Under the pieces are notes generated by a model. It was given only the letters and a program-made list of their open reading frames with translations. It had not been told where the DNA came from and did not search any database. Positions 13,407 through 30,450 of a stretch of 64,000 nucleotides of DNA are shown one piece after another (within the stretch, counting starts at the first letter, position 1; every line of letters starts with the position of its first letter). The stretch is taken from NCBI GenBank assembly GCA_015066565.1, contig SVOB01000001.1:1302001-1366000 (forward strand), read 5' to 3'. This DNA comes from Oscillospiraceae bacterium. Lineage in GTDB: Bacteria; Bacillota; Clostridia; Oscillospirales; Acutalibacteraceae. Both the position numbers and the translations under genes were made by a program.

Positions 13407-13435
13407 TTGACAAATGATTTTTACGGTGTTAATAT
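13407..13435 (+). promoter_or_regulatory. Promoter of the first T-box leader
   Basis: TTGACA at 13407-13412, a 17-base spacer and TAATAT at 13430-13435. Transcription would begin about 13442, just before Stem I of the T-box. Confidence 0.85.
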
Positions 13436-13441
13436 GGTAAA

Positions 13442-13716
13442 AACTTAAAAAAAGGCTGTGACGAAGACGGCTGAGTAGTTTGTTTTTCAGAGATTCGGTG
13501 GTTGGTGCGAACCGGAATCAAATGCTCAAAAGCCCATCCCTTCCGAGCCGGAGGCCCGAAAAGCCCGAAGCTTAGTAGATACCTCCCGTGATTGCTGCGT
13601 AAAGGCATAGGAATTGCTGGATTCCGAGAGTGGCGATATTTTTTATCGCAATTTGAGTGGTACCGCGGATGTGATTTTCACACTCGTCTCAAAGAAATGA
13701 GACGGGTGTTTTTTTA
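13442..13716 (+). ncRNA. T-box leader 1 (Leu or Ile specifier)
   Basis: A tRNA-sensing T-box leader. The AGTAG box (about 13474), the Stem I apical motif GGTTGGTGCGAACC (13500-13513), the CTTAGTAGA of Stem III (about 13571) and the T-box GAGTGGTACCGCGG (13655-13668) are all present. They are followed by a terminator hairpin with a T-run (13679-13716). The specifier is ambiguous. CTC (Leu, 13525-13527) fits a specifier loop above a GGCT/AGCC helix; ATC (Ile, 13536-13538) fits by alignment to leader 2. Both are branched-chain codons. The terminator should be disrupted when the matching tRNA is uncharged, switching on the ligase gene downstream. Confidence 0.9.
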
Positions 13717-13780
13717 TTGCTCAATCTGTTTTAACCCGATAAGCAAAATCCATTAATATATAAGAAAAGGGAGAATCATT

Positions 13781-16051
13781 ATGGAGCATTCAACCGAAAA
13801 AACGAAATTACTTGAAATCGCCATGCGTATTCGTGAAATGCGCGAAATTTCGGGGCTTACTCAGGAGGAAATGGCTATTGAAACCGAGGTTACGGTTGAC
13901 GAATACCTCAAGTATGAGGCGGGTCAGCTTGACTTTCCTTTCACCTTTCTTCATAAGTGCGCCCACGTTTTCAATATCGACATTACCAATATTCTTGAGG
14001 GTAAGAGCGCCCATCTTTCGTCCTACACGGTAACGAGAAAGGGCGCAGGACAGGAAACGGCTAAGGAGGACGGAATTGAAATTGTCAACCTCGCTCCGAA
14101 ATTCAGAAAAAAGATGAGCGAGCCGCACTGGGTAAAGTACGAATATGACGAGGCTCTTCAGAATAAGCCTATTCATACCACTACCCATTCGGGTCAGGAA
14201 TTCGACTACGTTTTACAGGGTCACCTCAAGGTTCAGATTGGCTCGAATACCGAAATTCTTCACGAGGGCGACAGCGTTTACTATAACAGCTCAACGCCTC
14301 ACGGTATGATTGCCGTTGACGGTGAGGACTGTCTTTTCCTTGCGGTTGTAATCCCCGGCGTTGAAGAAAAGGAAGAGGTTGTAAGGGATACCCTTATTCC
14401 GACCCGTTCGTCGAATAAAAAATACGTCAGCGAGAATTTTATCACCTGTACCGAAAGCGAAACGGGACTTCTTGAAAAAATTGAATTCAAGAATGAGGAT
14501 AAATTCAATTTTGCCTTTGATATTGTCGATGAAATTGCAAAGAAAAATCCCGAAAAGCTCGCTATGCTCCATATTTCAAAGGATAAAACAGAACGTCATT
14601 TCACCTTTAACGATATGAAGCGCGCTTCAAACCAGACCGCTAACTATTTTAAATCCTTAGGTATCAAAAAGGGCGACAGGGTAATGCTTGTTCTGAAACG
14701 TCATTACCAGTTCTGGTTCTCAATGCTTGCTCTTCATAAGCTCGGCGCGGTTGCAATTCCCGCTACAAATCAGCTTCAGGAGCACGATTTTGAATATCGC
14801 TTCAAGGTCGGCGAGGTCAGCGCAATCGTCTGTACTGCCGACGGCGACGTAGCTCATCAGGTTGAGCTTGCCGAGGAAAAATGCCCGACTCTTAAAACAA
14901 AGATTATCGTCGGCGGCGAAAGAGAAGGCTGGCACGATTTCAACAGCGAATATTCGCTTTTCAGCACTCATTTCCACCGTTCGGACGAAACTCCCTGCGG
15001 AAACGACCCGATGGTTATGTTCTTTACCTCGGGCACAACGGGTTATCCGAAGCTCGCCATGCACTCATATAAATACGCTTTAGGTCATTATATCACGGCT
15101 AAATACTGGCACGGCGTAAGTGACGACGGACTTCATTTCACAATTTCCGAAACAGGTTGGGGCAAGGCTCTCTGGGGCAAGCTCTACGGTCAGTGGCTCT
15201 GCGAGGGCGCTGTATTTACATACGACTTTGACCGCTTTGACGCGGCGGATATTCTTCCCATGTTCGCAAAGTACAATATCACTACCTTCTGCGCGCCGCC
15301 GACAATGCTCCGTATGATGATTAAGCAGGATATTTCAAAATACGATTTGTCGTCGGTACGCCATATGACAACGGCGGGCGAGGCTCTCAACCCCGAGGTT
15401 TACCGCCAGTTTGAAAAGGCGACGGGACTTCAGATTATGGAGGGCTTCGGTCAGACCGAAACAACCCTTTCGATAGGCAACCTTATCGGAGGTACTCATA
15501 AGGTCGGTTCAATGGGTAAGCCCTCGCCGCTTTATGACCTCGACATTCTTGACGAGGACGGCAATTCCGTTCCCGTAGGCGAAACCGGCGAAATCGTAAT
15601 CAAGGTCGGCGATAAGGCTCCCTGCGGACTTTTCCTCGGCTACTATCATGACGAGGAATCGACCAAAAAGGTTTGGCATGACGGGTATTATCATACGGGC
15701 GACACTGCGTGGCGTGACGAAGACGGCTTCCTGTGGTATGTCGGGCGTGTTGACGACGTTATCAAGTCCTCGGGCTACCGCATCGGACCGTTTGAAATCG
15801 AGAGCGTTATTATGGAGCTTCCCTACGTTCTTGAATGCGGCGTTTCGGCAGTTCCCGACGAGGTAAGAGGTCAGGTAGTCAAGGCGAGCATAGTTCTCGT
15901 CAAGGGCACTGAGGGTACGGAAGAGCTTAAAAAGGAAATCCAGAATTATGTCAAGAGCCACACCGCACCCTATAAATACCCGAGAATAGTTGTATTCCGT
16001 GAGGATTTGCCCAAGACAATAAGCGGTAAAATCCAGAGAAATCAGCTTTAA
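13781..16051 (+). CDS. XRE-HTH + cupin + acyl-CoA ligase fusion protein, copy 1
   Basis: A 756-residue three-part protein. Residues about 12-68 are an XRE/Cro helix-turn-helix (MRIREMREISGLTQEEMA). Residues about 125-195 are a cupin (HSGQEFDYVLQGHLKVQIG, then HEGD and PHGM). Residues about 245-756 are an AMP-forming acyl-CoA ligase with TSGTTGYPK (about 412), GFGQTE, YHTGD, GRVDDVIKSSGYRIGP and the catalytic lysine in SGKIQRNQL. The ligase part resembles ACSM-type medium/branched-chain acid:CoA ligases, which make acyl-CoA, AMP and PPi. A T-box controls it and an AAGGGAG Shine-Dalgarno sets the start. I infer activation of a branched-chain acid (isovalerate, 2-methylbutyrate or isobutyrate). 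The HTH-cupin half may bind DNA or sense the acid. Its paralogue follows at 16426. Confidence 0.88.
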   Translation: MEHSTEKTKLLEIAMRIREMREISGLTQEEMAIETEVTVDEYLKYEAGQLDFPFTFLHKCAHVFNIDITNILEGKSAHLSSYTVTRKGAGQETAKEDGIEIVNLAPKFRKKMSEPHWVKYEYDEALQNKPIHTTTHSGQEFDYVLQGHLKVQIGSNTEILHEGDSVYYNSSTPHGMIAVDGEDCLFLAVVIPGVEEKEEVVRDTLIPTRSSNKKYVSENFITCTESETGLLEKIEFKNEDKFNFAFDIVDEIAKKNPEKLAMLHISKDKTERHFTFNDMKRASNQTANYFKSLGIKKGDRVMLVLKRHYQFWFSMLALHKLGAVAIPATNQLQEHDFEYRFKVGEVSAIVCTADGDVAHQVELAEEKCPTLKTKIIVGGEREGWHDFNSEYSLFSTHFHRSDETPCGNDPMVMFFTSGTTGYPKLAMHSYKYALGHYITAKYWHGVSDDGLHFTISETGWGKALWGKLYGQWLCEGAVFTYDFDRFDAADILPMFAKYNITTFCAPPTMLRMMIKQDISKYDLSSVRHMTTAGEALNPEVYRQFEKATGLQIMEGFGQTETTLSIGNLIGGTHKVGSMGKPSPLYDLDILDEDGNSVPVGETGEIVIKVGDKAPCGLFLGYYHDEESTKKVWHDGYYHTGDTAWRDEDGFLWYVGRVDDVIKSSGYRIGPFEIESVIMELPYVLECGVSAVPDEVRGQVVKASIVLVKGTEGTEELKKEIQNYVKSHTAPYKYPRIVVFREDLPKTISGKIQRNQL

Positions 16052-16080
16052 TACGTTAATAAAATAATTTAATAAACCGA

Positions 16081-16109
16081 TTGACAAATAAAAAAAGTTG
16101 ATTTATAAT
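16081..16109 (+). promoter_or_regulatory. Promoter of the second T-box leader
   Basis: TTGACA at 16081-16086 and TATAAT at 16104-16109 with a 17-base spacer, a full consensus match starting 30 bases after the stop of the first ligase gene. Confidence 0.88.
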
Positions 16110-16115
16110 ACCTTA

Positions 16116-16396
16116 AAATATAAAAAGGCGTTGAAGAAGAGAGTAATTTCAGGCTTTCGCAAAGAGAGGTAACGGTTGGTGTAAGTTATCGGAAAAGCGG
16201 TCTTTACTGTAGCTTCCGAGCCGGGAGGAAGAAAAGCTTCGGCTTAGTAGAACCTCTCCGTGACTGCTGCGTTAATGCATACGGCTTGTCAGAGCCTGAG
16301 CGGCGAAAAAATTTCGCAATTTGAGTGGTACCGCGGGTATTAAATTTTGATTTAACGCTCGTCTCAAAGTAATCAACTTTGGGACGGGCATTTTTT
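16116..16396 (+). ncRNA. T-box leader 2 (probable Val specifier)
   Basis: A second T-box leader with AGAGTAA (about 16139), the AAAGAGAGG and GGTTGGTGTAAG apical motifs of Stem I (16160-16186), CTTAGTAGA (about 16243), the T-box GAGTGGTACCGCGG (16323-16336), and a 14-bp terminator hairpin with T-run (16357-16396). The base of Stem I on the 3' side reads GTA-G-CTTCC. Aligned with leader 3 this puts the specifier at GTA (Val, 16209-16211), followed by the usual purine. It shares the CTTCCGAGCC block with leader 1, so the two leaders probably duplicated together with their genes. Confidence 0.9.
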
Positions 16397-16425
16397 ATCC
16401 CGTCCGAAACCGAGGAGTTGTTATT

Positions 16426-18708
16426 ATGGAGTACACCGGTCTTGATTTCAAAATCAAGGAAATGGCGGCAAGAATTAAAGAGCTTCGCGAAATCACGCAT
16501 TTTTCAGCCGAGGAAATGGCTAAAAAGACCGACGTGAGCGTGGAGGAATACCTTGACTGCGAAAACGGTAAAAAGGACCTGAGCTTTGCGTTCATTTACC
16601 GTTGCGCGCTTGCTTTCGGCGTTGACGTAACCGATATTATCGAAGGCGTCAGCCCGACGCTTTCCTCAATGGTCATCACCCGTAAAAACGAGGGTCAGAA
16701 AATTGAGCAGGCGCACGGTATGGTCTATTATTCTCTCGCGCCGAATTTCAGAAACCGTATTTCCGAGCCTCTTTTTGTCAACTGCGCATATAATCCGGAA
16801 GCGGAAAAGAAAGATATTGAGCTGACTACCCACGAGGGTCAGGAAATGGACATTGTAATTTCAGGTCAGCTTCTTATTCAGGTCGGCTCACATAAAGAGG
16901 TACTCAATCCCGGCGACACCGCCTATTACGACAGCGGAACTCCCCACGGTATGATAGCCTTAGGCGGCAAGGACTGTCAGTTTTACGCAATTGTCCTCAA
17001 TCCCGCGGGCGAGTCAATCAACAAGATAACCCATAAGGACGCCGATATTGTAATTAAGGCTACCGAGGATAAAAAGTCGAGAGTTTATAAGAAATATATC
17101 GACGTTGAGAAAAATGAAAACGGAACTCCGACGAAGATTACTTTTAAAAATATTGACAATTTCAATTTCGCATTTGATATTATGGACGAAATTGCGAAAA
17201 AGGACCCCGACAAGCTGGCCATGCTTCACGTTTCAAAGGATAAAACCGAAAGGCGCTTTACCTTTGAGGATATAAGAAAAATGTCGAACCAGTGCGCGAA
17301 CTACTTTAAATCGCTCGGCATTAAGAAGGGCGACAGGGTTCTTCTCGTTCTTAAAAGGCACTATCAGTTCTGGATTGCCATGCTCGGACTTATCAAGCTC
17401 GGCGCTATCGGTATTCCCGCCGTCGCTCTTTTACAGAGTCACGATTTTGAATACCGTTTTCAGTCCTCGGGCGCTTCGGCTGTTATTTCAACCGCTGACG
17501 GCGACACAGCTCATCAGATTGATATTGCTTCGTCAGCCTGCCCCGAGCTTAAAATAAAGCTTATCGCAAACGGAACCCGTGAGGGCTGGAGAAGCTTTGA
17601 CGAGGAATTTCCGCTTTACAGTCCGGAGTTTGAAAGAACGGCGGATTCAACCGGCGGCGACGACCTTATGCTTATGTATTTCACGTCAGGCACCTCAGGT
17701 TATCCGAAAATCGCTACCCACAACTGCAAATACCCATTAGGTCATTTCCACACTGCTAAATACTGGCACTGCGTTGACCCCGACGGACTTCATTTTACTA
17801 TTTCCGACACAGGCTGGGCAAAGGCGGCTTGGGGTAAATTCTACGGCCAGTGGATGTGCGAGGCGGCGCTGTTTGTCTATGACTTTGACCGCTTTGACGC
17901 CGAGGATATTCTGCCGATGTTTGCGAAATATCATATCACGACCTTCTGCGCGCCGCCTACAATGCTCCGTATGATGATTAAGCAGGATATTTCAAAATAT
18001 GATTTCTCCTCAGTCAAGCATATGACGACGGCGGGCGAAGCGCTTAACCCCGAGGTTTACCGCCAGTTTGAAAAGGCGACGGGACTTCAAATCTTAGAGG
18101 GCTTCGGTCAGACCGAGGGCACAATGCTCATAGGTAATATGAGAGGCGCAACTCACCGTATCGGCTCAATGGGCAAGCCCGCACCGATTTATAAAATCGA
18201 GCTTCTTGACAAGGACGGCAATCAGGTTCCCGTAGGTGAAACCGGCGAGATTTGCGTCAATGTCAAGGACGGCGCTCCGTGCGGACTGTTTGTCGGCTAT
18301 TACGGCGACAAAGAAAAGACCGAAGAGGTATGGCACGACGGCTATTACCATACGGGCGACGCTGCCTGGATGGATGAGGACGGCTTCTTCTGGTATGTCG
18401 GACGTGTTGACGACGTTATCAAGTCCTCGGGCTACCGCATAGGTCCGTTTGAAATCGAGAGCGTTATTATGGAGCTTCCCTATGTTCTTGAATGCGGCGT
18501 TTCCGCCGCGCCCGACGAGGTCAGAGGCCAGGTTGTCAAGGCGAGCATAGTTCTTGTCAAGGGAACCGAGGGTACTGACGAACTCAAAAAGGAAATTCAG
18601 GACTACGTCAAAACCCATACGGCGCCTTACAAGTATCCGAGAATAGTTGTTTTCCGTGACGAGCTTCCAAAGAGCACAAGCGGTAAAATTCAGAGGAATA
18701 AATTATAA
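16426..18708 (+). CDS. XRE-HTH + cupin + acyl-CoA ligase fusion protein, copy 2
   Basis: A 760-residue paralogue of the protein at 13781 with the same order: XRE helix-turn-helix (about residues 13-68), cupin (about 130-200, with HEGQEMDIVISGQ and PHGM), and AMP-forming acyl-CoA ligase (about 250-760) with TSGTSGYPK (about 420), GFGQTE, YHTGD, GRVDDVIKSSG and the catalytic lysine in SGKIQRNKL. Large stretches of the ligase half are identical between copies while the HTH half differs more. It starts a six-gene run ending in ilvE: its stop overlaps the next gene by one base (TAATG). The Val-type T-box suggests it activates isobutyrate or another branched acid for reductive carboxylation by the oxidoreductase encoded downstream. 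The substrate is inferred, not shown. Confidence 0.88.
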   Translation: MEYTGLDFKIKEMAARIKELREITHFSAEEMAKKTDVSVEEYLDCENGKKDLSFAFIYRCALAFGVDVTDIIEGVSPTLSSMVITRKNEGQKIEQAHGMVYYSLAPNFRNRISEPLFVNCAYNPEAEKKDIELTTHEGQEMDIVISGQLLIQVGSHKEVLNPGDTAYYDSGTPHGMIALGGKDCQFYAIVLNPAGESINKITHKDADIVIKATEDKKSRVYKKYIDVEKNENGTPTKITFKNIDNFNFAFDIMDEIAKKDPDKLAMLHVSKDKTERRFTFEDIRKMSNQCANYFKSLGIKKGDRVLLVLKRHYQFWIAMLGLIKLGAIGIPAVALLQSHDFEYRFQSSGASAVISTADGDTAHQIDIASSACPELKIKLIANGTREGWRSFDEEFPLYSPEFERTADSTGGDDLMLMYFTSGTSGYPKIATHNCKYPLGHFHTAKYWHCVDPDGLHFTISDTGWAKAAWGKFYGQWMCEAALFVYDFDRFDAEDILPMFAKYHITTFCAPPTMLRMMIKQDISKYDFSSVKHMTTAGEALNPEVYRQFEKATGLQILEGFGQTEGTMLIGNMRGATHRIGSMGKPAPIYKIELLDKDGNQVPVGETGEICVNVKDGAPCGLFVGYYGDKEKTEEVWHDGYYHTGDAAWMDEDGFFWYVGRVDDVIKSSGYRIGPFEIESVIMELPYVLECGVSAAPDEVRGQVVKASIVLVKGTEGTDELKKEIQDYVKTHTAPYKYPRIVVFRDELPKSTSGKIQRNKL

Positions 18709-19373
18709 TGAACTATAAAAGACTGACTCTTCTTTGCGGCCATTACGGCAGCGGAAAGACGAATATTGCGGTCAATATGGCGCTTGACCTGAGAAAAAGC
18801 TTTGATAACGTTACGGTCGCCGACCTTGACATTGTCAATCCCTATTTCAGAACAAAGGACTCGAGCGACGAATTTGAAAAAGCGGGCATCAGGTTGATTG
18901 TGTCGGAATTTGCAAACACAAACCTCGATTTACCTTCTATGCCGCAGGATATGTACGCCCTTACCGACGACAGAACAATGAAAGCCGTTATCGACGTCGG
19001 CGGCGACGACAGGGGGGCTTTGGCTCTCGGAAGACTCGCTCCGAAAATCATTGAGGAAAACGATTACGAGATGCTGATGGTAATTAATAAATTCCGTCCG
19101 CTCACGCCCGACGCCGAAAGCACAATTGAGGTAATGCGTGAAATTGAAGCGGCAGGCGGTATTCGCTTTACGGGGCTTATCAATAACTCCAATCTCGGCG
19201 ACGAAACTACAGCCGAGAACGTATTGAAAAGCGTTGAATATGCAAATGCGGTTTCCTCACTTTCCCACCTGCCCGTAGTCTTGACTACGGTGCAAAAAGA
19301 GTTGTATAATGTTCTGAACGGGAAAATTGAAAACCTTTTCCCGATGACTTTACAGAAAAAGCCTATAAACTGA
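18708..19373 (+). CDS. ParA/CobQ-like P-loop ATPase
   Basis: A 221-residue SIMIBI-class ATPase with the Walker A GHYGSGKTNIAVN near residue 10, a switch-like DLDIVNPYFR near residue 39, and DVGGDDRG near residue 91. It resembles small nucleotide-binding proteins found next to 2-oxoacid:ferredoxin oxidoreductase genes in Clostridia, whose job is not established to my knowledge. No membrane segment is visible. It is wedged between the ligase (one-base overlap) and the ferredoxin-like subunit (24-base gap), so it is co-expressed with the oxidoreductase. Possible roles are Fe-S cluster handling or assembly of the complex; both are guesses. Confidence 0.75.
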   Translation: MNYKRLTLLCGHYGSGKTNIAVNMALDLRKSFDNVTVADLDIVNPYFRTKDSSDEFEKAGIRLIVSEFANTNLDLPSMPQDMYALTDDRTMKAVIDVGGDDRGALALGRLAPKIIEENDYEMLMVINKFRPLTPDAESTIEVMREIEAAGGIRFTGLINNSNLGDETTAENVLKSVEYANAVSSLSHLPVVLTTVQKELYNVLNGKIENLFPMTLQKKPIN

Positions 19374-19397
19374 TTTTAATTAGAGGGAGATACAGAT

Positions 19398-19604
19398 ATG
19401 GCAAAACTTACGTTTAAAACCGACAACTGTAAGGGTTGCGGACTGTGCGTTGACGCCTGTCCGAAAAAGATTTTGCGCTTAGCCGACGACAAAATCAACA
19501 AAAAGGGCCATCACCCTGCCGAAATAATCGACCAGGAGGCGTGCATCGGTTGCGCCTGCTGCGCTATGATGTGTCCCGACTGTATAATTAAGGTAGAAAG
19601 GTAA
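19398..19604 (+). CDS. 2-oxoacid:ferredoxin oxidoreductase, ferredoxin-like (delta) subunit
   Basis: A 68-residue protein with two C-x-x-C-x-x-C-x-x-x-C-P motifs (CKGCGLCVDACPKK and CIGCACCAMMCPD), binding two [4Fe-4S] clusters. It is the size and composition of the delta subunit of four-subunit pyruvate/2-ketoisovalerate-type oxidoreductases and carries electrons between the TPP site and external ferredoxin. A GAGGGAG Shine-Dalgarno precedes the ATG. The order delta-alpha-beta-gamma that follows is typical of VOR/KOR operons. Confidence 0.9.
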   Translation: MAKLTFKTDNCKGCGLCVDACPKKILRLADDKINKKGHHPAEIIDQEACIGCACCAMMCPDCIIKVER

Positions 19605-19614
19605 GGTGTGAAGA

Positions 19615-20679
19615 ATGGCTGACAAAGTATTGATGAAGGGCAACGAGGCAATTGCCGAAGCCGCTATCATAGCAGGCTGCAGACACTACTTCGGTTACCC
19701 GATTACACCTCAGACCGAGGTTGCCGCTTATATGGCGAAGAAAATGCCCAAAATCGGCGGCGTTTTTCTTCAGGCTGAAAGCGAAATCGCCGCTATCAAT
19801 ATGGTTTACGGCGTTTCCTCGGCAGGTAAAAGAGTTATGACGTCCTCCTCAAGCCCCGGAATTTCGCTTAAGGGCGAAGGACTTTCCTATCTTGCAGGCA
19901 GTGACCTGCCCGCTCTCGTTGTCAATGTTCAGAGAGGCGGCCCCGGACTTGGCGGAATTCAGCCCTCGCAGTCCGATTATTTTCAGGCTACAAGAGGCGG
20001 CGGACACGGTGACTACAGGATGATAGTTCTCGCTCCCGCTTCAGTTCAGGAAATGGCTGAGCTTACCGTAAAGGGCTTTGAGCTTGCGGATACATACAGA
20101 ATGACATCTATGATTCTTGCCGACGGCACAATGGGTCAGATGATGGAACCCGTTTCACTCGACATTGAGGTTAAGCCTGCGCCCGAGAAGCCCTGGGCAA
20201 CAACAGGAACAAAGATGGAAAGAGAGCATAATATAGTCAACTCCCTCTCACTCGTTCCCGAAGAGCTTGAACAGCTCAATTTCGCTCGCTACGAAAGATA
20301 TAAGGTTATTGAAGAAAACGAAACCATGTTTGAAGAATATATGGTTGACGACGCCGATATAGTTATCGCGGCTTTCGGTATTGCGGCGCGTGTTTCAAAG
20401 AACGCCGTTAACGAAGCGAGAGCTATGGGCATAAAGGCGGGACTTATCCGTCCGATTACTCTCTGGCCGTTCCCGAATGCGCCCTTTAAAAAGGCGGCTG
20501 AACACGCAAAGCAGTTTATTTCGGTTGAGCTTTCAATGGGCCAGATGATTGAGGACGTTAAGCTCGCTACCGAATGTAAGGTTCCCGTTACGCTCTGCAA
20601 CAGAGCCGGCGGTATGATTCCGAGTCCCGAGCAGGTACTCGAAGCTATTAAAGAAGCAGCAAAAGGAGGTAACAGATAA
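19615..20679 (+). CDS. vorB: 2-ketoisovalerate-type ferredoxin oxidoreductase, alpha subunit (VorB)
   Basis: A 354-residue alpha subunit containing the pyrimidine-binding and middle domains of the TPP enzyme family. The start MKGNEAIAEAAIIAGC, GYPITPQTE near residue 27 and QAESEIAAINMVYG near residue 60 are characteristic of VorB/KorA proteins. The complex interconverts branched-chain 2-oxoacid + CoA + oxidised ferredoxin with branched acyl-CoA + CO2 + reduced ferredoxin. Substrate choice between 2-ketoisovalerate-type and 2-oxoglutarate acids is not fixed by sequence; the acyl-CoA ligase and ilvE neighbours favour branched-chain acids. The stop overlaps the beta-subunit start by one base. 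Confidence 0.88.
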   Translation: MADKVLMKGNEAIAEAAIIAGCRHYFGYPITPQTEVAAYMAKKMPKIGGVFLQAESEIAAINMVYGVSSAGKRVMTSSSSPGISLKGEGLSYLAGSDLPALVVNVQRGGPGLGGIQPSQSDYFQATRGGGHGDYRMIVLAPASVQEMAELTVKGFELADTYRMTSMILADGTMGQMMEPVSLDIEVKPAPEKPWATTGTKMEREHNIVNSLSLVPEELEQLNFARYERYKVIEENETMFEEYMVDDADIVIAAFGIAARVSKNAVNEARAMGIKAGLIRPITLWPFPNAPFKKAAEHAKQFISVELSMGQMIEDVKLATECKVPVTLCNRAGGMIPSPEQVLEAIKEAAKGGNR

Positions 20680-21437
20680 TGGCAGTTGTATTTGATAAAC
20701 CCCATGCATTAATTGATGTTCCTCTTCATTATTGCCCCGGTTGTACTCACGGTATAGTTCACCGCCTTGTAGCCGAGGTTATTGACGAATTAGGCATTGA
20801 GGGAAGAACAATCGGTATCGCTCCCGTAGGCTGTTCGGTTATGGCTTATAACTATTTCAACTGCGATATGATTGAGGCGGCCCACGGAAGAGCGCCCGCA
20901 GTTGCAACCGGCGTTAAAAGAGCCGACCCCGAAAACCACGTTGTTTTCACCTATCAGGGCGACGGCGACCTCGCTTCAATCGGTATGGCTGAAACAGTTC
21001 ACGCCGCGGCGAGAAACGAAAACATTACAATTATCTTTATCAATAACGCAATTTACGGTATGACGGGCGGTCAGATGGCTCCGACCTCGCTTCCCGGTCA
21101 GGTTACACAGACCTCACCCTACGGAAGAGACCCGAAGCTCTGCGGTTATCCGATTAAGGTCTGCGAAATGCTTTCAGAGCTTGAGGGACCCGAATATCTT
21201 GAAAGAGTTACCGTAAACTCCGTTCCTCATATCAGAGCTGCAAAGAAAGCTATCAAAAAGGCATTCCAGAATCAGCTTGACAATAAGGGATTTTCACTTG
21301 TTGAGGTTGTTTCGTCCTGCCCGACAAACTGGGGTATGACTCCTCAGGCGGCTTTACAGTGGATTGATGATAAAATGCTTCCCTATTACCCGTTAGGCGT
21401 ATATAAGGACAGAAGCGCCGAGAAGGAGGCTGAATAA
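20679..21437 (+). CDS. 2-ketoisovalerate-type ferredoxin oxidoreductase, beta subunit (TPP-binding)
   Basis: A 252-residue thiamine-diphosphate-binding subunit. The Cys pair region CPGCTHG near residue 19 is typical of this subunit, and the TPP/Mg motif is seen as GDGDLASIGMAE near residue 94 with the closing NNAIYGMTGGQ near residue 124. It overlaps the alpha-subunit stop by one base and is followed after one base by the gamma subunit, so stoichiometric expression is likely. With the alpha subunit it forms the catalytic site for oxidative decarboxylation or, with low-potential ferredoxin, reductive carboxylation. The T-box and ilvE context favours the carboxylation direction. Confidence 0.92.
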   Translation: MAVVFDKPHALIDVPLHYCPGCTHGIVHRLVAEVIDELGIEGRTIGIAPVGCSVMAYNYFNCDMIEAAHGRAPAVATGVKRADPENHVVFTYQGDGDLASIGMAETVHAAARNENITIIFINNAIYGMTGGQMAPTSLPGQVTQTSPYGRDPKLCGYPIKVCEMLSELEGPEYLERVTVNSVPHIRAAKKAIKKAFQNQLDNKGFSLVEVVSSCPTNWGMTPQAALQWIDDKMLPYYPLGVYKDRSAEKEAE

Positions 21438-21438
21438 T

Positions 21439-21975
21439 ATGGCTGCAAAGAATTTCTTGTTTTCAGGCTTCGGCGGACAGGGTATCCTTTTCGCAGGTAA
21501 GTTTTTAGCTTATAAGGGACTTATTGACAATAAGCAGGTAAGCTGGCTTCCGTCATACGGCCCCGAAATGCGAGGCGGCACGGCTTCCTGTTCGGTAATT
21601 ATTAGCGACGAGCCCGTAGGCTCGCCTATCGTTTCAAATCCCGATATTCTTATCGCTATGAATCTTCCCTCGTTTGACCGCTATGAAAACGCGGTTAAAA
21701 AAGGCGGAATAATCTTTGCGGACTCAACTCTTATTGAGCGCAAGGCAGTTCGTGACGACGTTACGGTTTACTATATTCCCGCAACAAGACTTGCGAGCGA
21801 AAACGGTATGCCAACGCTTGCGAATATGATAATCATAGGAAAAATTCTTAAGGTTCTTGACGATTTCAACGAAGAAAGCGTCCGCGCGGCTCTCGGAAAG
21901 GTTATTTCCGCAAAGCACGCAGATATGCTTGAGGTTAACCTTAAGGCTATGCAAATCGGCGCTGATTTTGAATAA
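21439..21975 (+). CDS. 2-ketoisovalerate-type ferredoxin oxidoreductase, gamma subunit
   Basis: A 178-residue protein of the pyruvate/ketoisovalerate oxidoreductase gamma family: [15 protein letters not shown] at the N-terminus and the [17 protein letters not shown] block near residue 37 are diagnostic. This domain contributes the CoA-side part of the complex. The start follows an AGGAGG-like site inside the beta-subunit gene, and the aminotransferase gene begins 13 bases after the stop. It completes a full delta-alpha-beta-gamma set. Confidence 0.92.
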
Positions 21976-21988
21976 GGAGTGATTTATT

Positions 21989-23053
21989 ATGGAAATTAAA
22001 TTCGTAAAGGCAGATACTCTTAAAGCAAAGCCCGAGCCTTCAACCCTCGGCTTCGGCAAGATTTTTTCGGACTATATGTTCATGATGGACTGGAACAAGG
22101 AAACCGGCTGGCAGAACGCGAGAATCGTTCCCTTCGGCTATCTTTCAATCCATCCCGCTTCAACCGTTCTTCATTACGGCTCGGCTATTTTTGAGGGACT
22201 TAAGGCTTACAGAAGAGCCGACGGCAAGGTTCAGCTTTTCAGACCTATGGAAAACATCCGCAGAATGAACAATTCTGCCGAGCGTCTTTGCCTGCCCCAG
22301 ATTCCCGAGGATATGGCTCTTGAAATTTATACAAAATTCGTTGACTGCGAAAAGGACTGGACTCCGTCGGCAGAGGGCACTTCGCTCTATCTTCGTCCGT
22401 TTATGTTCGGTAATGACGAGTCCTTAGGCGTTCACGCAGTTCACAACGCAACGTTCATCATTATCGCTTCACCCGTCGGCTCATACTACAAAGAGGGTAT
22501 TAACCCCGTTAAGATTATGATTGAAGACGAGGACGTAAGAGCGGTAAGAGGCGGTACGGGTTACGCTAAATGCGGCGGTAACTATGCGGCTTCAAACAGA
22601 GCGGGCGAGAGAGCCGAGCAGAAGGGTTACTCTCAGGTACTCTGGCTTGACGGCGTTGAGAGAAAGTATATTGAAGAAGTCGGCGCTATGAACGTAATGT
22701 TCAAGATTAACGGCGAAATCGTTACTCCCAAGCTCACAGGCTCAATTCTTCCCGGTATCACAAGAAAGAGCTGTATTGAAGTTCTCAAGAGCGAGGGCTA
22801 CAACGTAAGCGAAAGGCTTTTAAGCCTTGAAGAGTTGACAAAGGCTATGGCTGACGGCACTCTCGAAGAGGCTTGGGGCTGCGGCACAGCGGCTGTTGTT
22901 TCACCTATCGGCGAGCTTTGCTATAAGGACCACAAGTACACAATCAACAACGGCGAAATCGGCCCCGTTACCCAGCACCTCTACGACACCCTCACGGGCA
23001 TCCAGTGGGGCAAGACCGAGGATAAATTCGGCTGGACGTATTTGATTGGTTGA
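21989..23053 (+). CDS. ilvE: Branched-chain amino acid aminotransferase
   Basis: A 354-residue class IV PLP-dependent aminotransferase of the long IlvE type. HYGSAIFEGLKAYR near residue 60, RPFMFGN near residue 134, the lysine-containing GTGYAKCGGNYAAS near residue 186 and the YIEEVGAMNVMF block near residue 224 are the family landmarks. It interconverts Val, Leu or Ile with the branched 2-oxoacids and glutamate. A GGAGTG Shine-Dalgarno precedes the ATG. As the last gene after the acyl-CoA ligase and oxidoreductase in a T-box-controlled run, it probably takes the 2-oxoacids made by reductive carboxylation to the amino acids. A strong terminator follows. Confidence 0.95.
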   Translation: MEIKFVKADTLKAKPEPSTLGFGKIFSDYMFMMDWNKETGWQNARIVPFGYLSIHPASTVLHYGSAIFEGLKAYRRADGKVQLFRPMENIRRMNNSAERLCLPQIPEDMALEIYTKFVDCEKDWTPSAEGTSLYLRPFMFGNDESLGVHAVHNATFIIIASPVGSYYKEGINPVKIMIEDEDVRAVRGGTGYAKCGGNYAASNRAGERAEQKGYSQVLWLDGVERKYIEEVGAMNVMFKINGEIVTPKLTGSILPGITRKSCIEVLKSEGYNVSERLLSLEELTKAMADGTLEEAWGCGTAAVVSPIGELCYKDHKYTINNGEIGPVTQHLYDTLTGIQWGKTEDKFGWTYLIG

Positions 23054-23076
23054 TTGAAAATCATTATTAGACAAAA

Positions 23077-23109
23077 AAACCGAGCAGTTTGAAACTGCTC
23101 GGTTTTTTT
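23077..23109 (+). terminator. Rho-independent terminator after ilvE
   Basis: AACCGAGCAG pairs with CTGCTCGGTT around a 7-nt loop, and a run of seven T follows. It closes the ligase-oxidoreductase-ilvE unit. Confidence 0.92.
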
Positions 23110-23258: not shown

Positions 23259-24071
23259 CTACTTGATATTAAATACCTTCATTGCATTTTCCGAAAGGAT
23301 TTTGCGTTTGTCGTCATCCGAAAAGCCGAGGGAGAGAAATCTGTCAAGCTCGGTTTTCGGCGACCACATGGGGTAGTCCGTTCCGAAAAGCACTCTGTCC
23401 GTTCCGTAACGGACAAAAATCTCCTTAACAACCTTGTCGTCGGGAAGCCACGCAAAGCTCGAGGAACAGTCAACATATAAATTCGGTATTCCGTGAAGCT
23501 TTTTTGACGCTTCCTCCCAGATTGACCAGCCGCCGAAATGAGCGCCGATTATAATTAAATCGGTGTATATTTCAAGAATGGGAACAAGCCTGTTCGGGTT
23601 TGAGTTGTCATAACGGCTGTCGCCCGTGTGCATAAGGATAGGCAGGCGGTGCTTTTCGCAAAGCTCGTAAATTTTAAGACAGCGGTAATCGTCTATCTTA
23701 AAGCCCTGAATATCGGGGTGAAGCTTAACGCCGTGAAGCCCTAACGTGATAATTTCTTCAACGTCCTTTTCCATATCGGCGCTGTCGGGGTGAAGAGTGC
23801 CGAGCCCTATCAAAACGCCCTCGCTCTTTTCAACCTCGCAGGCGATAAAGTTGTTTATAGACGAAACCTGCTTCGGAGTTGTTGCGACGGACTGGACGAT
23901 AAAGCGGTCAATTCCCGCCTTTTTACCCTCGCGCATAAGCATTCCGACCGTGCCGTCGCCGAAGCCGTGAACGTCATAAAATCTGTCTGTTGCGCCCGCC
24001 GCCTTTGCGGCTATCTTATCGGGATAAACGTGACAGTGAGCGTCGATTACACTGAATTTGTTTTCAACCAT
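23259..24071 (-). CDS. Amidohydrolase family protein
   Basis: A 270-residue TIM-barrel amidohydrolase (amidohydrolase-2 type) of usual length. Metal-binding signatures are H-x-H in DAHCHVYPDK near residue 10, GVKLHPDIQG near residue 134, MHTGDSR near residue 166, GAHFGG near residue 196 and FGTDYPMW near residue 244. Such enzymes hydrolyse C-N or decarboxylate C-C bonds. The ATG overlaps the stop of the ligase fusion gene upstream by one base, so it is the last gene of the Leu-T-box unit. Its role there is not evident. Confidence 0.85.
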   Translation of the reverse strand: MVENKFSVIDAHCHVYPDKIAAKAAGATDRFYDVHGFGDGTVGMLMREGKKAGIDRFIVQSVATTPKQVSSINNFIACEVEKSEGVLIGLGTLHPDSADMEKDVEEIITLGLHGVKLHPDIQGFKIDDYRCLKIYELCEKHRLPILMHTGDSRYDNSNPNRLVPILEIYTDLIIIGAHFGGWSIWEEASKKLHGIPNLYVDCSSSFAWLPDDKVVKEIFVRYGTDRVLFGTDYPMWSPKTELDRFLSLGFSDDDKRKILSENAMKVFNIK

Positions 24072-26596
24072 TATGCCGTCACCACGCTGTCCGCTTTCTG
24101 CAAGCCGAGTTTTTCAACCGCGTCCTTGCGCATCTGATACTTAAGGATTTTACCTGCCGCGTTCATCGGGAATTCCTTAACGAAATCGACATAGCGGGGA
24201 ACCTTGTGGCGTGCCATACTCTTAGCGACAAAGTCCTTCATTTCCTGCTCAGTCATGGTTTCGCCCTCTTTGAGAATTACGCACGCCATAATCTCCTCGC
24301 CGTACTGCTCGTCGGGAACGCCGATAACCTGAACGTCGCTGACCTTGGGATTTGTATAAATAAATTCCTCAATTTCCTTCGGGTAAATGTTCTCGCCGCC
24401 GCGGATAATCATATCCTTAAGGCGACCCGTGATTTTGTAGTTGCCTTCCTTTGTTCTGCAGGCAAGGTCGCCCGTGTGAAGCCAGCCGTCCTTGTCAATA
24501 GCGGCGGCAGTTGCTTCGGGCATTTTGTAGTAGCCCTTCATAATGTTGTAGCCGCGGGCAACAAATTCGCCCGTAACCTCGTCGGGACAGTCCTCGCCCG
24601 TTTCGGGGTCAACTATCTTACATTCGATTTCGGGCATAGCCCTGCCGACTGTTGAAACACGGACCTCAAGCGAATCGTCGGTTGAGCTCATAGTGCAACC
24701 GGGCGAAGCCTCGGTCTGACCGTAAACGATAACGATTTCACGCATATTCATTTTATTGACAACGTCCTGCATAGCCGAAATCGGGCAGGGGCTTCCCGCC
24801 ATAATACCCGTTCTCATATATGAAAAGTCGGTTTTCGGGAAATCGGGATGCTCAAGCATGGCTATAAACATTGTCGGTACGCCGTGGAAAGCCGTGATAT
24901 GCTCATTATGAATACACGCAAGCGACGGCTTCGGCGAAAAGTAGGGCATGGGCAGAAGCGTTCCGCCGTGAGTCATTGTCGAGGTCATAGCCAAAACCAT
25001 ACCGAAGCAGTGGAACATGGGAACCTGAATCATCATTCTGTCAGCCGTGGACAAATCCATTCTGTCGCCGATACACTTACCGTTGTTTACTATATTGTAA
25101 TGGGTGAGCATAACGCCCTTCGGGAAGCCTGTTGTTCCCGAGGTATACTGCATATTGCAGACGTCGTCGGGCTTTACGAGAGAAGCGATTCGGTAAACCT
25201 CTTCCTTATTAATTTCGCTCGCCCTTTCAAGAGCCTCGTTCCATTCGAGACAGCCCTTCTGTTTAAAGCCGACCGTGATAACGTTTCTTAAAAACGGCAG
25301 ACGCTTTGAGTGGAGGGGCGAGCCTGCCTTTGTGTTTTCAAGCTCGGGACAAAGCTCGGCGATAATTTTTCCGTAGTGGGTGTCCTTTGCGCCCTCGGTA
25401 ATGACGAGGGTGTGAGTGTCGGATTGCTTTAAAAGGTATTCGACCTCGTGAATTTTATAAGCGGTGTTGACCGTTACAAGAACCGCGCCGAGTTTGACTG
25501 TTGCCCAGAAGGTAATAAACCACTGGGGCACGTTTGAAGCCCAGATGGCAACGTGACTTCCCTGTTTAACGCCCATGGCGAGAAGAACCCTTGCGAATTC
25601 GTCGACGTCGTCACGAAACTGCGAATAGGTTCTCGTGTAGTCAAGTGTGGTGTATTTGAAAGCATACTGGTCGGGGAATTCCTCAACCATTCTGTCAAGC
25701 ACCTCGGAAAAGGTTTTTTCGATAAGCAAATCCTTTTTCCAGACGAATTTTCCCGTATGAGCCTTGTTGTAATAAAGCGTTTTTTCATTTTTTGCCGTGT
25801 CGCCGAACTGCTTCATATAATTGACAAAATGGGAGAAGATAATTTCCATATCGTCAATCTCGGGGAACCACTGCGGGTCCCAGACAAGCGAAACGAAGCC
25901 GTCAAAGTTAACCGAACGAAGCGCTTTCATAACCTCGTTCATAGGCAGCTCGCCTTCGCCGACAAGACAGTATTCGTAACCCTCGCCGACTTTTCTTACA
26001 TCGCTTATATGAACGTGCTTAACATAAGCGCCGAGGTTTTTAATAATATCCTTCGGCTCTTCGCCTACGGATTTATATGCCTCGCTGACGTTCCAGAGCG
26101 CCGCAAGATAATCGCTCGCAAAGTTTTCGAGAATATCGCGAAGAACGACCGTGTCGGAGAACATACCCTTTGTTTCGATAAGAAGAACAACCTTGTTTTC
26201 CTCGGCTGTTTTTACCGCTTTTTCAAGAACGGAAGAAACAAAGCCGAACGCTTCGTCTGTTCTTTTTTCGGCTTCCGCGCGAAGTCTGACGTAGGGAATA
26301 TGAAGATTTTTCGCAATTTCAATACAGGCGTTAATCTCATCAAGCGTTTCTTTTTTGCTTTCAGTGTCCGACAGGTCGCAGATTGTGTCAATACAGGTCA
26401 GCTGAAGCTTTTTTTCAAAGAGCTTGCGAAGAGTTGCCGCCGCCGTGTAGTCGTGAAACGCCCCGTTTTTATCGGTGAAAAGGCGGTTGTGGATATTGTG
26501 AAGCTCAATTCCCTTAAAGCCGAGGTCCTCTGCTATAAGGCAGAAGTCGTCAAAGGTGCTGTCGTGCCAACCCTTTGTTGAGAACGAAAGATTCAT
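24071..26596 (-). CDS. TIM-barrel (sugar-phosphate isomerase/epimerase-like) + acyl-CoA ligase fusion
   Basis: An 841-residue two-domain protein. Residues 1-265 read as an AP-endonuclease-2/xylose-isomerase-type TIM barrel (GFKGIELHNIHN near residue 28, LLIETKG near 140, HVHISD near 196, VGEGELP near 212). Some expected metal ligands are altered: the usual W-D-x-x-H is WNVSE. Residues about 290-835 are an AMP-forming acyl-CoA ligase with TSGTTGFPKG (about 485), YGQTE, LHTGD, GRLKDMIIRGGENIYP and the lysine in AAGKILKYQM. GAGGAGG precedes the start, and the gene begins three bases after the LeuA-like stop region. It is expressed under a Leu T-box, so activation of a leucine-related carboxylic acid is my inference. 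This domain pairing is unusual. Confidence 0.88.
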   Translation of the reverse strand: MNLSFSTKGWHDSTFDDFCLIAEDLGFKGIELHNIHNRLFTDKNGAFHDYTAAATLRKLFEKKLQLTCIDTICDLSDTESKKETLDEINACIEIAKNLHIPYVRLRAEAEKRTDEAFGFVSSVLEKAVKTAEENKVVLLIETKGMFSDTVVLRDILENFASDYLAALWNVSEAYKSVGEEPKDIIKNLGAYVKHVHISDVRKVGEGYEYCLVGEGELPMNEVMKALRSVNFDGFVSLVWDPQWFPEIDDMEIIFSHFVNYMKQFGDTAKNEKTLYYNKAHTGKFVWKKDLLIEKTFSEVLDRMVEEFPDQYAFKYTTLDYTRTYSQFRDDVDEFARVLLAMGVKQGSHVAIWASNVPQWFITFWATVKLGAVLVTVNTAYKIHEVEYLLKQSDTHTLVITEGAKDTHYGKIIAELCPELENTKAGSPLHSKRLPFLRNVITVGFKQKGCLEWNEALERASEINKEEVYRIASLVKPDDVCNMQYTSGTTGFPKGVMLTHYNIVNNGKCIGDRMDLSTADRMMIQVPMFHCFGMVLAMTSTMTHGGTLLPMPYFSPKPSLACIHNEHITAFHGVPTMFIAMLEHPDFPKTDFSYMRTGIMAGSPCPISAMQDVVNKMNMREIVIVYGQTEASPGCTMSSTDDSLEVRVSTVGRAMPEIECKIVDPETGEDCPDEVTGEFVARGYNIMKGYYKMPEATAAAIDKDGWLHTGDLACRTKEGNYKITGRLKDMIIRGGENIYPKEIEEFIYTNPKVSDVQVIGVPDEQYGEEIMACVILKEGETMTEQEMKDFVAKSMARHKVPRYVDFVKEFPMNAAGKILKYQMRKDAVEKLGLQKADSVVTA

Positions 26597-26599
26597 CTG

Positions 26600-27976
26600 T
26601 TACGCCTCCTCATAGACGATTTTGTTAATAGCGTTAAGATAAGCGCGGATTGAAGCGCCGATAATATCGGTTGAAATACCGTTGCCGGAATAGACCTTTC
26701 CGCCCGAACGAAGCTTGACTACTGCCGAGCCCATAGCTTCGGTTCCCTCGGTAACAGCCTGAATCTGAAAATCGTCAAGCTCGTAATGACAACCGAGAAT
26801 TTTATCGATAGCGAGAAAAGCCGCGTCAATCGGGCCGTCGCCGATTTCAATGCCCTCAAGAGTTTTTCCGTCTTTTTCAAGAGTGATGTTTGCGCTTGCG
26901 GTGATTATGTTTCCGTTATTTATAACGTAGCTTTTAAGCTTGTAGGTTGCGGGAACCTGAAGGGCGGCGGAAGCGACTATTGCGTCAAGCTCCTTAGCGC
27001 CGACGTTCTTTTTAGAAGCGACCCTTAAAAACTCCTCATAGACCTTTGCGCAATCCTCTTCCGAAAGGTCGTAACCGAGCTTTTTAACCTCGGAAATAAC
27101 AGCCTGCTGAGAGTCGTTTTTATCGAGCCTTATTGATTCCGTGCCCGCTTCGACTGTTACGACCGATTTTTCGTTTTTGGCGTTGTCGGTAATGCGGACT
27201 ATCTGCTTGACGGTACGGTTAAGCTCGGTGAAATTAACGCCCGTTGTTAAAGAATAGGTTTCGCCGCAGTTTTTAATAATTGTTGCGAAGGTTTCAAGCG
27301 AAGCGGTTTCGCCGCCGACAGCGGTTTTAACGCCCGAAGCGCCGTTTCTTACGGCGAGGACTGCCTGGGCCTCGGCAAGACCGTTTTTGTTAGTGCATTT
27401 TACGAAAACGGGAACACCCGACCTGTCGCTTATTTCCTTTGAAAAAGCGGCGAAATCGTCAGGGAACATTGAGCCTGCCGTGTCGCAGACTGTTATACAG
27501 TCAGCGCCCGCGCTTATTGCGTTTTCAATAGCCGAAAAGAGAAAATCCTTTTCGGCTCTTGTTGCGTCAAGAGCGCAGAATTCAACGCAAGCAACCTGCT
27601 TTTTCGCTTCGGAAACGACGTGTGAAATCCACTCAAGCATTTTCGGAGCCTTTTTATGACAGGTGTATTCCATTCCGACAGGGGAGACGGGAAGCTCAAT
27701 TCGGATTAAAGCGTTTTTCGTGTTTGAAAGGGCTTCGCAGGCGAGCGAAACGCTTTCGTCGGTTTTTCCCGCCGCAACGGAAAGAACGCTGTTTTTAACG
27801 AAGGAAGAAACCGTCCGCGCCAATAGAACATCGGTTTTGCTGTTTTCAATTTCGGGCAGCTCAATAACGTCAACCTTTAGCTTTTCAAGCTGACGTGCAA
27901 TTTCAATTTTCTCCTTAAAGGAAAAGCTGTTGTTTTCACGGCAGAGCGTCGTGTCAGCAATTCTGATGTTTTTCAT
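26600..27976 (-). CDS. LeuA-like protein with degenerate catalytic site and intact regulatory domain
   Basis: A 458-residue homologue of 2-isopropylmalate synthase. The start at 27976 follows the T-box leader and an AAGGAAG Shine-Dalgarno; longer readings run through the T-box. The barrel (about 1-280) shows DTTL and FSFKEKIEIARQL, but the catalytic L-R-D-G-E-Q is LCRENN, the metal-binding H-x-H-N-D is KCTNKN (about residue 191), and the GIHQDG linker motif is absent. The C-terminal leucine-binding domain (about 340-458) is well kept: GDGPIDAAFLAID, AVTEGTEAMG and GNGISTDIIGASIRAYLNA. It heads a Leu-T-box operon with a ligase fusion. I infer a leucine-binding pseudoenzyme or an enzyme with changed chemistry rather than ordinary LeuA. 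Confidence 0.8.
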   Translation of the reverse strand: MKNIRIADTTLCRENNSFSFKEKIEIARQLEKLKVDVIELPEIENSKTDVLLARTVSSFVKNSVLSVAAGKTDESVSLACEALSNTKNALIRIELPVSPVGMEYTCHKKAPKMLEWISHVVSEAKKQVACVEFCALDATRAEKDFLFSAIENAISAGADCITVCDTAGSMFPDDFAAFSKEISDRSGVPVFVKCTNKNGLAEAQAVLAVRNGASGVKTAVGGETASLETFATIIKNCGETYSLTTGVNFTELNRTVKQIVRITDNAKNEKSVVTVEAGTESIRLDKNDSQQAVISEVKKLGYDLSEEDCAKVYEEFLRVASKKNVGAKELDAIVASAALQVPATYKLKSYVINNGNIITASANITLEKDGKTLEGIEIGDGPIDAAFLAIDKILGCHYELDDFQIQAVTEGTEAMGSAVVKLRSGGKVYSGNGISTDIIGASIRAYLNAINKIVYEEA

Positions 27977-27999: not shown

Positions 28000-28275
28000 A
28001 ATATAAAAAGTCCCCGAGGTCTTGCGACCTCAGGGACGGATTAAACCGCGGTACCACCCTGATTGGTTTTAAAATAAAACCCACTTAGCGAAGTTCAGTC
28101 AAACTCCCTGCCATGATAACGGGGCAAGCCGTAACCGCTTACTGCTTTGGGCGGTTCTGCTCCGGAACGAGGCTCAGTATCCGTTCACGCCGTCTTACAC
28201 CAACCGACGGCTCTCTTTGCCGAATTGAGGATAAAGATTAATTCCTTCGTTGCATTTAATTAAAAATGTAATTGC
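28000..28275 (-). ncRNA. T-box leader 3 (Leu, CUC specifier)
   Basis: Reading the minus strand: GGAATTAATC near the base of Stem I, AAAGAGAGCCGTCGGTTGGTG-type apical motifs (about 28218-28198), then GAG-C-CTC-G-TTCC. CTC (28171-28169) is flanked exactly as a specifier should be, with a following purine and a GGAA/TTCC helix. The T-box AGGGTGGTACCGCGG is at 28060-28046, and a terminator hairpin (28037-28010) with a T-run precedes the start codon at 27976. CUC is the common leucine specifier in Firmicutes. Low charged tRNA-Leu should therefore induce the LeuA-like operon. Confidence 0.93.
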
Positions 28276-29325: not shown

Positions 29326-30450
29326 TCAATTAAGTTTAGGAATATATAGTTTTATCCCTTCTGGTAAAGAAAACCTTTTTTTCTTAGTTACAATTCCTAC
29401 TGCTTTTTGCGCTCTAGTGATTGCAACATAAAACTTTGATTTCGTTTCGAACTTTAATGGTTGTGAATTATCAAATATCCAGTTTTCCATATCTTTAGTA
29501 GGATAAATCAACACGCTTTCTCTTGTTAATCCCTTTGAGTTACCCATATTAATAACTTCATTGTTGGGATTGGTTTTTGTTCTTATGTTATGCCGTATTT
29601 GCGTTGCATTATACTCTTGTAGAAACGCATCAACATCGTCTTCTTTAACAACAAAAACCCCTTTGTCACTTGTTTCCTCTTGGTCCTTATAAGCACAAGA
29701 TGGCATATCAGGATAAAGCTGATTAGCTAAAATACAGATGTCTTTGAAGTTTCTATGTGAAACATTTAATGTCTCTTCGTCTATTTCAACAACTTCTGCC
29801 TCCAGATTATCAACTAAAAATTCTTTTATTTTTCCTTCGGAATATTTACTCCATTTCGCTTCTTCATGTGTATGATATGTTACTTGTCTAGGATCTCCGA
29901 CCATTATCAGATTAATAGGAGATTCTATTAAATATTTAATAATACTTAAATCGTAACCCGCTAAATCTTGTACCTCGTCAACAAAAATATAATCAAACAC
30001 TTTTGATAATCTATCAATTACAAGTCCTGATGATTTTTCGTTTTCAAACACCACAAATTTTGCCAACTTATCAGAATATATTTGCATCGAATTGTTAAAA
30101 AAGTGTTCCTTTGTTTCGGTTTCTGCGTTAAAGTATACAGGATTTCCTTTATAATAATACTTTATTCCTGATCGCTGATTTACCAGCATTAGCCCTTTCA
30201 CTACGCCTTCATAAACATAGTTTTGATATGGTTTTACGCCATGCTGTAACAAAAATGAAAACCAAGTTTGTACAATCACATTACTTGGAATAAAACCATT
30301 TATTTCTATGAACTTACGTTTAATTTCACGCTCATTTGCTTCAGTAAAGGTTGTAATCAGCACTGTTTTGTTTTGAATTGTCAAAGACTCGTTAACAAGA
30401 AAGGTTGTTTTTCCTGAACCTGCGGCAGCAATAATTAGTTTATTACTCAT
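29326..30450 (-). CDS. Compact UvrD-like (GajB-like) helicase
   Basis: A 374-residue superfamily 1 helicase/ATPase. Motif I is AAAGSGKTTFLV at the very N-terminus, motif II is FVDEVQDLAGYD near residue 153, motif III is VGDPRQVTYH near residue 188, and motif VI is YVAITRAQKAVG near residue 340. It is much shorter than UvrD/PcrA and appears to lack the accessory 2B insertion. It overlaps the OLD-family gene upstream by eight bases. An OLD-family nuclease next to a UvrD-like helicase is the layout of class 2 OLD pairs, including the Gabija anti-phage system (GajA-GajB). I call it Gabija-like; a looser relative of Gabija is equally possible. Confidence 0.8.
   Translation of the reverse strand: MSNKLIIAAAGSGKTTFLVNESLTIQNKTVLITTFTEANEREIKRKFIEINGFIPSNVIVQTWFSFLLQHGVKPYQNYVYEGVVKGLMLVNQRSGIKYYYKGNPVYFNAETETKEHFFNNSMQIYSDKLAKFVVFENEKSSGLVIDRLSKVFDYIFVDEVQDLAGYDLSIIKYLIESPINLIMVGDPRQVTYHTHEEAKWSKYSEGKIKEFLVDNLEAEVVEIDEETLNVSHRNFKDICILANQLYPDMPSCAYKDQEETSDKGVFVVKEDDVDAFLQEYNATQIRHNIRTKTNPNNEVINMGNSKGLTRESVLIYPTKDMENWIFDNSQPLKFETKSKFYVAITRAQKAVGIVTKKKRFSLPEGIKLYIPKLN

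Follow-up and report, generated by a model that had tools for sequence, protein, structure and literature searches.

A locus with isoleucine, valine and leucine T-boxes in an Oscillospiraceae bacterium: probable synthesis of branched-chain amino acids from isoacids

We analysed a window of 64,000 nucleotides from an Oscillospiraceae bacterium (assembly GCA_015066565.1, contig SVOB01000001.1, positions 1,302,001 to 1,366,000), whose genome is 1.96 Mb in 3 contigs and 99% complete. As shown in Table 1, the window holds three units, each preceded by a T-box leader RNA. The Ile unit has one acyl-CoA (coenzyme A) ligase, ligase 1. In the Val unit, ligase 2 is followed by a P-loop protein gene, the genes of a 2-ketoisovalerate ferredoxin oxidoreductase (VOR) and ilvE. 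In the Leu unit, on the minus strand (28259-23259), the T-box precedes a LeuA-like gene, then a ligase fusion and then an amidohydrolase gene. An earlier reading of the DNA letters (the original prediction) had placed here a candidate for a dedicated T-box operon making branched-chain amino acids from branched acids. Both of its ligase units were located where it had put them, with Ile (AUC) and Val (GUA) leaders, and the second does run on into a four-subunit VOR and ilvE; the alpha subunit and IlvE exceed their family cut-offs, and the delta, beta and gamma subunits were recognised by Pfam. The T-box leaders were borne out, but not the single operon, as the ligases sit in two separate units and the Leu operon, absent from that prediction's listing, is a third one outside the stretch it described. 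We consider it very probable that this locus, with Ile, Val and Leu units under cognate T-boxes and with isoacid ligases, VOR and IlvE, stands in for a missing acetolactate route to the branched-chain amino acids.

Table 1. Features of the Ile, Val and Leu units (window positions; substrates are predictions).
Feature	Position	Strand	Evidence
Promoter-like site, Ile unit	13407..13435	+	TTGACA-17-TAATAT, 10/12; consensus match only
T-box leader 1, Ile, specifier AUC 13536-13538	13449..13694	+	83.3 bits, all 219 model positions aligned (own-genome search)
Terminator-like hairpin, leader 1	13680..13709	+	12 pairs, T run
Ligase 1, helix-turn-helix (HTH)-cupin-acyl-CoA ligase, predicted 2-methylbutyrate	13781..16051	+	Family/domain matches, 3etc match, Ile leaders
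Promoter-like site, Val unit	16081..16109	+	TTGACA-17-TATAAT, 12/12; consensus match
T-box leader 2, Val, specifier GUA 16209-16211	16122..16369	+	95.2 bits, over gathering score
Terminator-like hairpin, leader 2	16357..16389	+	14 pairs, T run
Ligase 2, HTH-cupin-acyl-CoA ligase, predicted isobutyrate	16426..18708	+	Family/domain matches, Val leaders
P-loop (CbiA/MinD-like) protein, between ligase 2 and VOR	18708..19373	+	PF01656 25.2 bits, just under cut-off 25.4
VOR delta, ferredoxin type	19398..19604	+	PF00037; best NCBIfam 2-oxoacid oxidoreductase delta subunits, below cut-off
VOR alpha, VorB type	19615..20679	+	NF005507, 541 bits, cut-off 399
VOR beta, thiamine diphosphate part	20679..21437	+	PF02775; best NCBIfam NF007207, 2-oxoglutarate type, 130/364 bits
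VOR gamma	21439..21975	+	PF01558; best NCBIfam NF006323, 123/235 bits
IlvE, branched-chain aminotransferase	21989..23053	+	TIGR01123 396 bits (cut-off 250), NF009897 479 (cut-off 307)
Amidohydrolase	23259..24071	-	PF04909
TIM-barrel (AP_endonuc_2)/acyl-CoA ligase fusion, isovalerate guessed	24071..26596	-	PF01261, PF00501; PRK12583-like, 690/832 bits
LeuA-like protein without catalytic motifs, LeuA_dimer domain	26600..27976	-	PF08502 110 bits, PF00682
T-box leader 3, Leu, specifier CUC 28171-28169	28029..28259	-	116.9 bits

Specifier codons were taken from the covariance-model alignment. Leader 1 falls under the RF00230 gathering score (93 bits) and was for that reason missing from the scan of the window. 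The genome has ten T-boxes, three in the window and seven outside it, and the latter served as a check on the reading of specifiers. The amino acid fitted the gene in 7/7: Tyr for tyrS, Phe for pheT, Val for valS, Thr for thrS, Asn for asparagine synthase, Trp for a TrpB-like gene and Cys for cysE/cysS (gene names assigned by eye from the translated sequences). The hairpins of leaders 1 and 2 are the two longest among 13 terminator-like sites, a total that chance would give for the region. Like the T-box leaders of other amino acid genes, those of the window combine the leader structure, a specifier codon and a terminator, and read-through on uncharged tRNA is predicted for them; unlike those, they lead into an acid-activating ligase, not a synthetase, a transporter or a classical biosynthesis gene.

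The pairing of leader and gene is conserved. At least 577 stretches with relatives of the ligases were confirmed, and the best 80 were kept, many of them Clostridia metagenome-assembled genomes titled from ruminants or other herbivores. Leaders were surveyed in 160 loci, these 80 and a second set of 80 that overlaps with them (L027 and L123 are one contig), and exact repeats of genes were removed before counting; 20 further loci, not de-duplicated, were used solely for assigning ligase 2. When run on the ten leaders of the own genome, the T-box scanner called 7, with the right codon in all 7, and missed 3. Among called leaders, those of ligase 1 were Ile in 109/109 (132 distinct genes), those of ligase 2 Val in 70/70 (83 distinct genes; 64 GTA, 6 GTC) and those of the LeuA-like gene Leu in 28/28 (37 distinct genes; one CTG, one CTT). 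Given the GTC, CTG and CTT variants, it is the amino acid that is kept and not the triplet. Eight scanner calls fell elsewhere than in front of these genes. Three of them read as Val, one as Leu and one as Trp, and the remaining three (TGA, AAG, TCC) are apparently false; the stray Val calls (L016, L024, L076) are probably leaders of ligase-2 genes truncated where the contig stops. In three loci with no called T-box (L132, L166, L168) and in L164, an Ile specifier can still be read by eye although the T-box motif or the stem is altered, and they were not counted. In L132, L166 and L168, GAGTGGTTA- or GAGTGGTATAATG-like letters stand where the TGGNACC motif is usual. The gene order is also recurrent: among 54 loci of the first set with 9.5 kb of room, ligase 2 was found in 42, a complete VOR in 50, the P-loop gene in 50 and IlvE in 41, and ligase 2, VOR and IlvE occurred together in 36.

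Ligases 1 and 2 are 65% identical, and both have HTH and cupin parts N-terminal to the ligase part; from a structure model of ligase 1 (pLDDT 75) we took nothing beyond the arrangement of domains. The top NCBIfam match of both is MbcS (NF047394), with 441 and 443 bits. The top PDB match of ligase 1, and its closest solved sequence, is 3etc, MacsMa from Methanosarcina acetivorans, with 622 bits over 530 residues. MacsMa is reported to prefer 2-methylbutyrate, with Trp259 critical for substrate binding (PMC10455477). This residue is kept as Trp465 of ligase 1, counting by hand in the alignment from Gly459, Tyr460 and Lys461 as named in that paper, and it is invariant across 24 aligned ligases. 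The match spans the ligase part only, and ligases 1 and 2 differ from MacsMa in their additional HTH and cupin parts and in their T-box control. From this relation and the pocket Trp, both are predicted to be branched short-chain acyl-CoA synthetases of the Macs type. MbcS of Staphylococcus aureus is described as selective for 2-methylbutyrate and isobutyrate and as using isovalerate poorly (PMC10026030). Isovalerate, which the original prediction had counted among the acids used here, is on that ground an unlikely substrate of ligases 1 and 2. MbcS also differs from them in serving membrane lipids and in being one enzyme for both acids, and the available text of PMC10026030 mentions no T-box.

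We compared 107 Ile-T-box with 53 Val-T-box ligases over the 527 positions of the ligase domain. A single position did not overlap between the two groups, Gly461 in ligase 1 and Ala465 in ligase 2, each in 100% of its group; the next-best position has Leu464 in ligase 1 versus Met, Ala or Thr at 468 in ligase 2. The Gly461 and Leu464 positions lie four and one residues before the acyl-pocket Trp, and the larger residue in the isobutyrate candidate would fit the smaller acid. Fully separating positions were found in the N-terminal part as well (96, 116 and 215), which indicates that the sensor part has diverged too. The ligase of L167 has Ala at the pocket position though it lies outside the Val clade, and it has no called T-box. 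It was dropped as a candidate for an independent Val switch, as the Val T-box of its locus is found downstream of the ligase gene, some 2.5 kb beyond the ligase start.

All four subunits of VOR are present, and its substrate and its direction are both predicted. The P-loop protein encoded between the genes of ligase 2 and VOR has no clear family and may help to assemble the oxidoreductase. Elsewhere in the window (41893-45443, minus strand) lie an [FeFe] hydrogenase and an oxidoreductase of pyridine nucleotides whose iron-sulphur part is NuoF-like, possibly linked to ferredoxin balance.

The LeuA-like protein of the Leu unit resembles 2-isopropylmalate synthase LeuA in its fold and its LeuA_dimer domain, but differs in having no catalytic motifs. 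In an alignment to 3ewb, the RDGEQ-type motif and the metal-binding His pair (HxH) were gone in 35/35 LeuA-like rows (34 contigs), a single His of the pair being kept in three rows (L042 and the overlapping L027 and L123). The C-terminal domain, a regulatory domain of the leucine type, is strongly kept among the relatives. With TIGR00973 the protein scored 257 bits, under the curated LeuA cut-off of 599. Nearest in fold to its structure model (pLDDT 87, pTM 0.59) are isopropylmalate synthases and related proteins; for the first domain, the fit to 3ewb reaches a TM of 0.91 of the target, and whole-chain fits are loose, at 0.5-0.6. The protein is possibly a leucine-sensing pseudoenzyme, the leucine binding being suggested by its domain. 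A classical LeuA route from ketoisovalerate to Leu, considered in view of the LeuA-like gene, was set aside because no aligned relative retains the catalytic motifs and the genome has no leuB over cut-off. The fused ligase belongs to another subfamily than ligases 1 and 2, and isovalerate as its acid is a guess from the T-box.

A search of the genome for the classical ilv and leu genes, which the original prediction had suggested, gave no match to ilvC or ilvD. No acetolactate synthase (ilvB) passed the cut-off in this genome; the sole similar protein scored 175 bits with 538 required and, judged by eye from its sequence and its neighbour, looks like an inositol-pathway enzyme. No leuB passed either, the sole PF00180 protein reaching 156 of 353 bits, and leuC, leuD and ilvA were not searched for. 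The PF00180 protein adjoins an aconitase, and the models that it matches best, all below their cut-offs, are those of isocitrate dehydrogenases. The ilvC, ilvD, ilvB and leuB families were each found in 14/14 control genomes.

Across 247 genomes of the order, 141 of which have ilvC, the gene was absent in 28/29 with ligase 2 versus 78/218 without it (Fisher p 1e-10; p 1.4e-9 when stratified by 8 families). Ligase 2 was assigned in these 29 genomes from the own genome and the loci read, and six genomes with partial ligase matches only (G123, G222, G234, G074, G103, G126) were counted as being without it. In the own family, ilvC was absent in 5/5 genomes with ligase 2 and present in 23/24 without. 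Within the own genus, ilvC is missing from G194, which has the ligases, and G230 is the reverse. In the wider class, ilvC was absent in 17/17 more genomes with a Val-leader ligase 2, versus 27/46 other tested carriers of the ligase type (19 have ilvC); G260 is counted here with ligase 2, as a Val leader precedes its ligase, and the p of 0.0014 was computed on 16 and 47.

The following scheme would account for these genes in a gut anaerobe, with the branched short-chain acids apparently supplied as leftovers of other microbes. Ligases 1 and 2 would convert 2-methylbutyrate and isobutyrate, respectively, to their CoA thioesters, and the VorB-type oxidoreductase, working in the carboxylating direction, would form the 2-oxoacid from acyl-CoA, CO2 and reduced ferredoxin. 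IlvE would then aminate the 2-oxoacid to Ile or Val, both this enzyme and VOR being placed in the Val unit. We infer most of the Leu branch: the same chemistry may run through the third unit, probably from isovalerate by way of the TIM-barrel-fused ligase. With a T-box RNA of its own on each activating unit, uncharged tRNA-Ile, tRNA-Val and tRNA-Leu would each induce the matching unit. The original prediction had argued for this anabolic direction and had called catabolism by such a set illogical. Our computations favour it: the genome search for the classical genes turned out as it had expected, and the identity of the T-boxes, the family of the ligases, their pocket residue and the tie between the Val ligase and loss of ilvC all agree with synthesis.

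Several observations weigh on the other side. Genome G075 carries ligase 2 together with ilvC, and the 78 genomes of the order with neither gene mean that losing ilvC can have other consequences. Ile-type ligases are found in genomes with ilvC too (13 called leaders), as would be expected if only Ile were made there from an acid. Part of the genes had no called T-box (23/132 for ligase 1, 13/83 for ligase 2 and 9/37 for the LeuA-like gene). Neither ligase reached the curated MbcS cut-off of 850 bits, their scores being about half of it. The Val ligases fall into a single clade (support 0.999), so the Gly/Ala difference counts as one evolutionary event. In VOR, the beta, gamma and delta subunits are under every family cut-off, and the best model of beta is of the 2-oxoglutarate type.

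Another explanation is that the ligases, like MbcS, provide branched acyl-CoA to prime the synthesis of membrane fatty acids when the primer-giving amino acids are short, with VOR and IlvE working oxidatively. A substitute source of primers under T-box control would make sense, and the nearest NCBIfam model, MbcS, serves fatty acid synthesis (PMC10026030). We nevertheless regard this as unlikely. VOR and IlvE share the Val T-box unit in the 36 loci noted above, where a breakdown induced by Val shortage would worsen the shortage, and neither the loss of ilvC with ligase 2 nor the use of one leader per amino acid is explained.

A catabolic reading was likewise set aside, because of the way T-boxes work and because ilv genes are missing. 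Peptide-fermenting anaerobes do use the same enzyme types to ferment Val, Ile and Leu to isoacids, and ligases running backwards could in that case yield ATP; AMP-forming ligases are, however, not known as the usual ATP-making enzymes, T-boxes respond to shortage, and ilvC and ilvD were not found in the genome, so that fermentation seems very improbable here. We give equally little credence to ligases acting on unrelated acids behind T-boxes that merely mark a general response to amino acid starvation. In its favour, the substrates are predictions and the cut-offs of the specific models were not reached, but every called leader carries the specifier cognate to its own gene and the nearest structure is of an enzyme reported to prefer 2-methylbutyrate (PMC10455477).

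A requirement for branched volatile fatty acids was recognised decades ago in some fibre-degrading rumen bacteria. Rumen work describes isovalerate, 2-methylbutyrate and isobutyrate as the acids from which Leu, Ile and Val are made (PMC7356843), and carboxylation of 2-methylbutyrate has been proposed in a methanogen (PMC2812497). Synthesis of branched-chain amino acids at the locus would be the same overall conversion; what is available of these two papers has no ligase operons, T-boxes or paralogous ligases, whereas here genes and switches are laid out together. The isoleucine routes listed in the available part of PMC7476758 include propionyl-CoA carboxylation and no route of the 2-methylbutyrate type. 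Among the papers listed in our searches of the open-access literature, none was seen to describe the gene set and its T-boxes, most subscription papers lying outside those searches. The reactions are known from rumen biochemistry, and the genetic and regulatory form appears to be new.

If our interpretation is right, the need for isoacids has a regulated genetic basis, and which bacterium needs which isoacid could be read from genomes. Branched-chain amino acid auxotrophies are predicted in about 40% of gut genomes (PMC10689445), and some of these may be isoacid requirements; models of cross-feeding and the rationale of isoacid feed supplements would change with them. A broader proposal could as easily fail as hold. 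A widespread group of gut Clostridia may have exchanged de novo branched-chain synthesis for three separately sensed isoacid modules, making them isoacid-dependent prototrophs that genome models call auxotrophs. Control would then be layered, with a cognate T-box for each acid, HTH-cupin-fused ligases that may be trigger enzymes and, as the leucine sensor of the Leu branch, an isopropylmalate synthase that has lost its activity.

Farther along the window, on the minus strand, a GajB-like helicase and a GajA-like ATPase/TOPRIM protein (29326-32086; 414 and 680 bits) form a Gabija-type defence pair. It is adjoined by a TIR protein of the CAP12/Pycsar effector type (PF10137; 33740-34768, minus strand).

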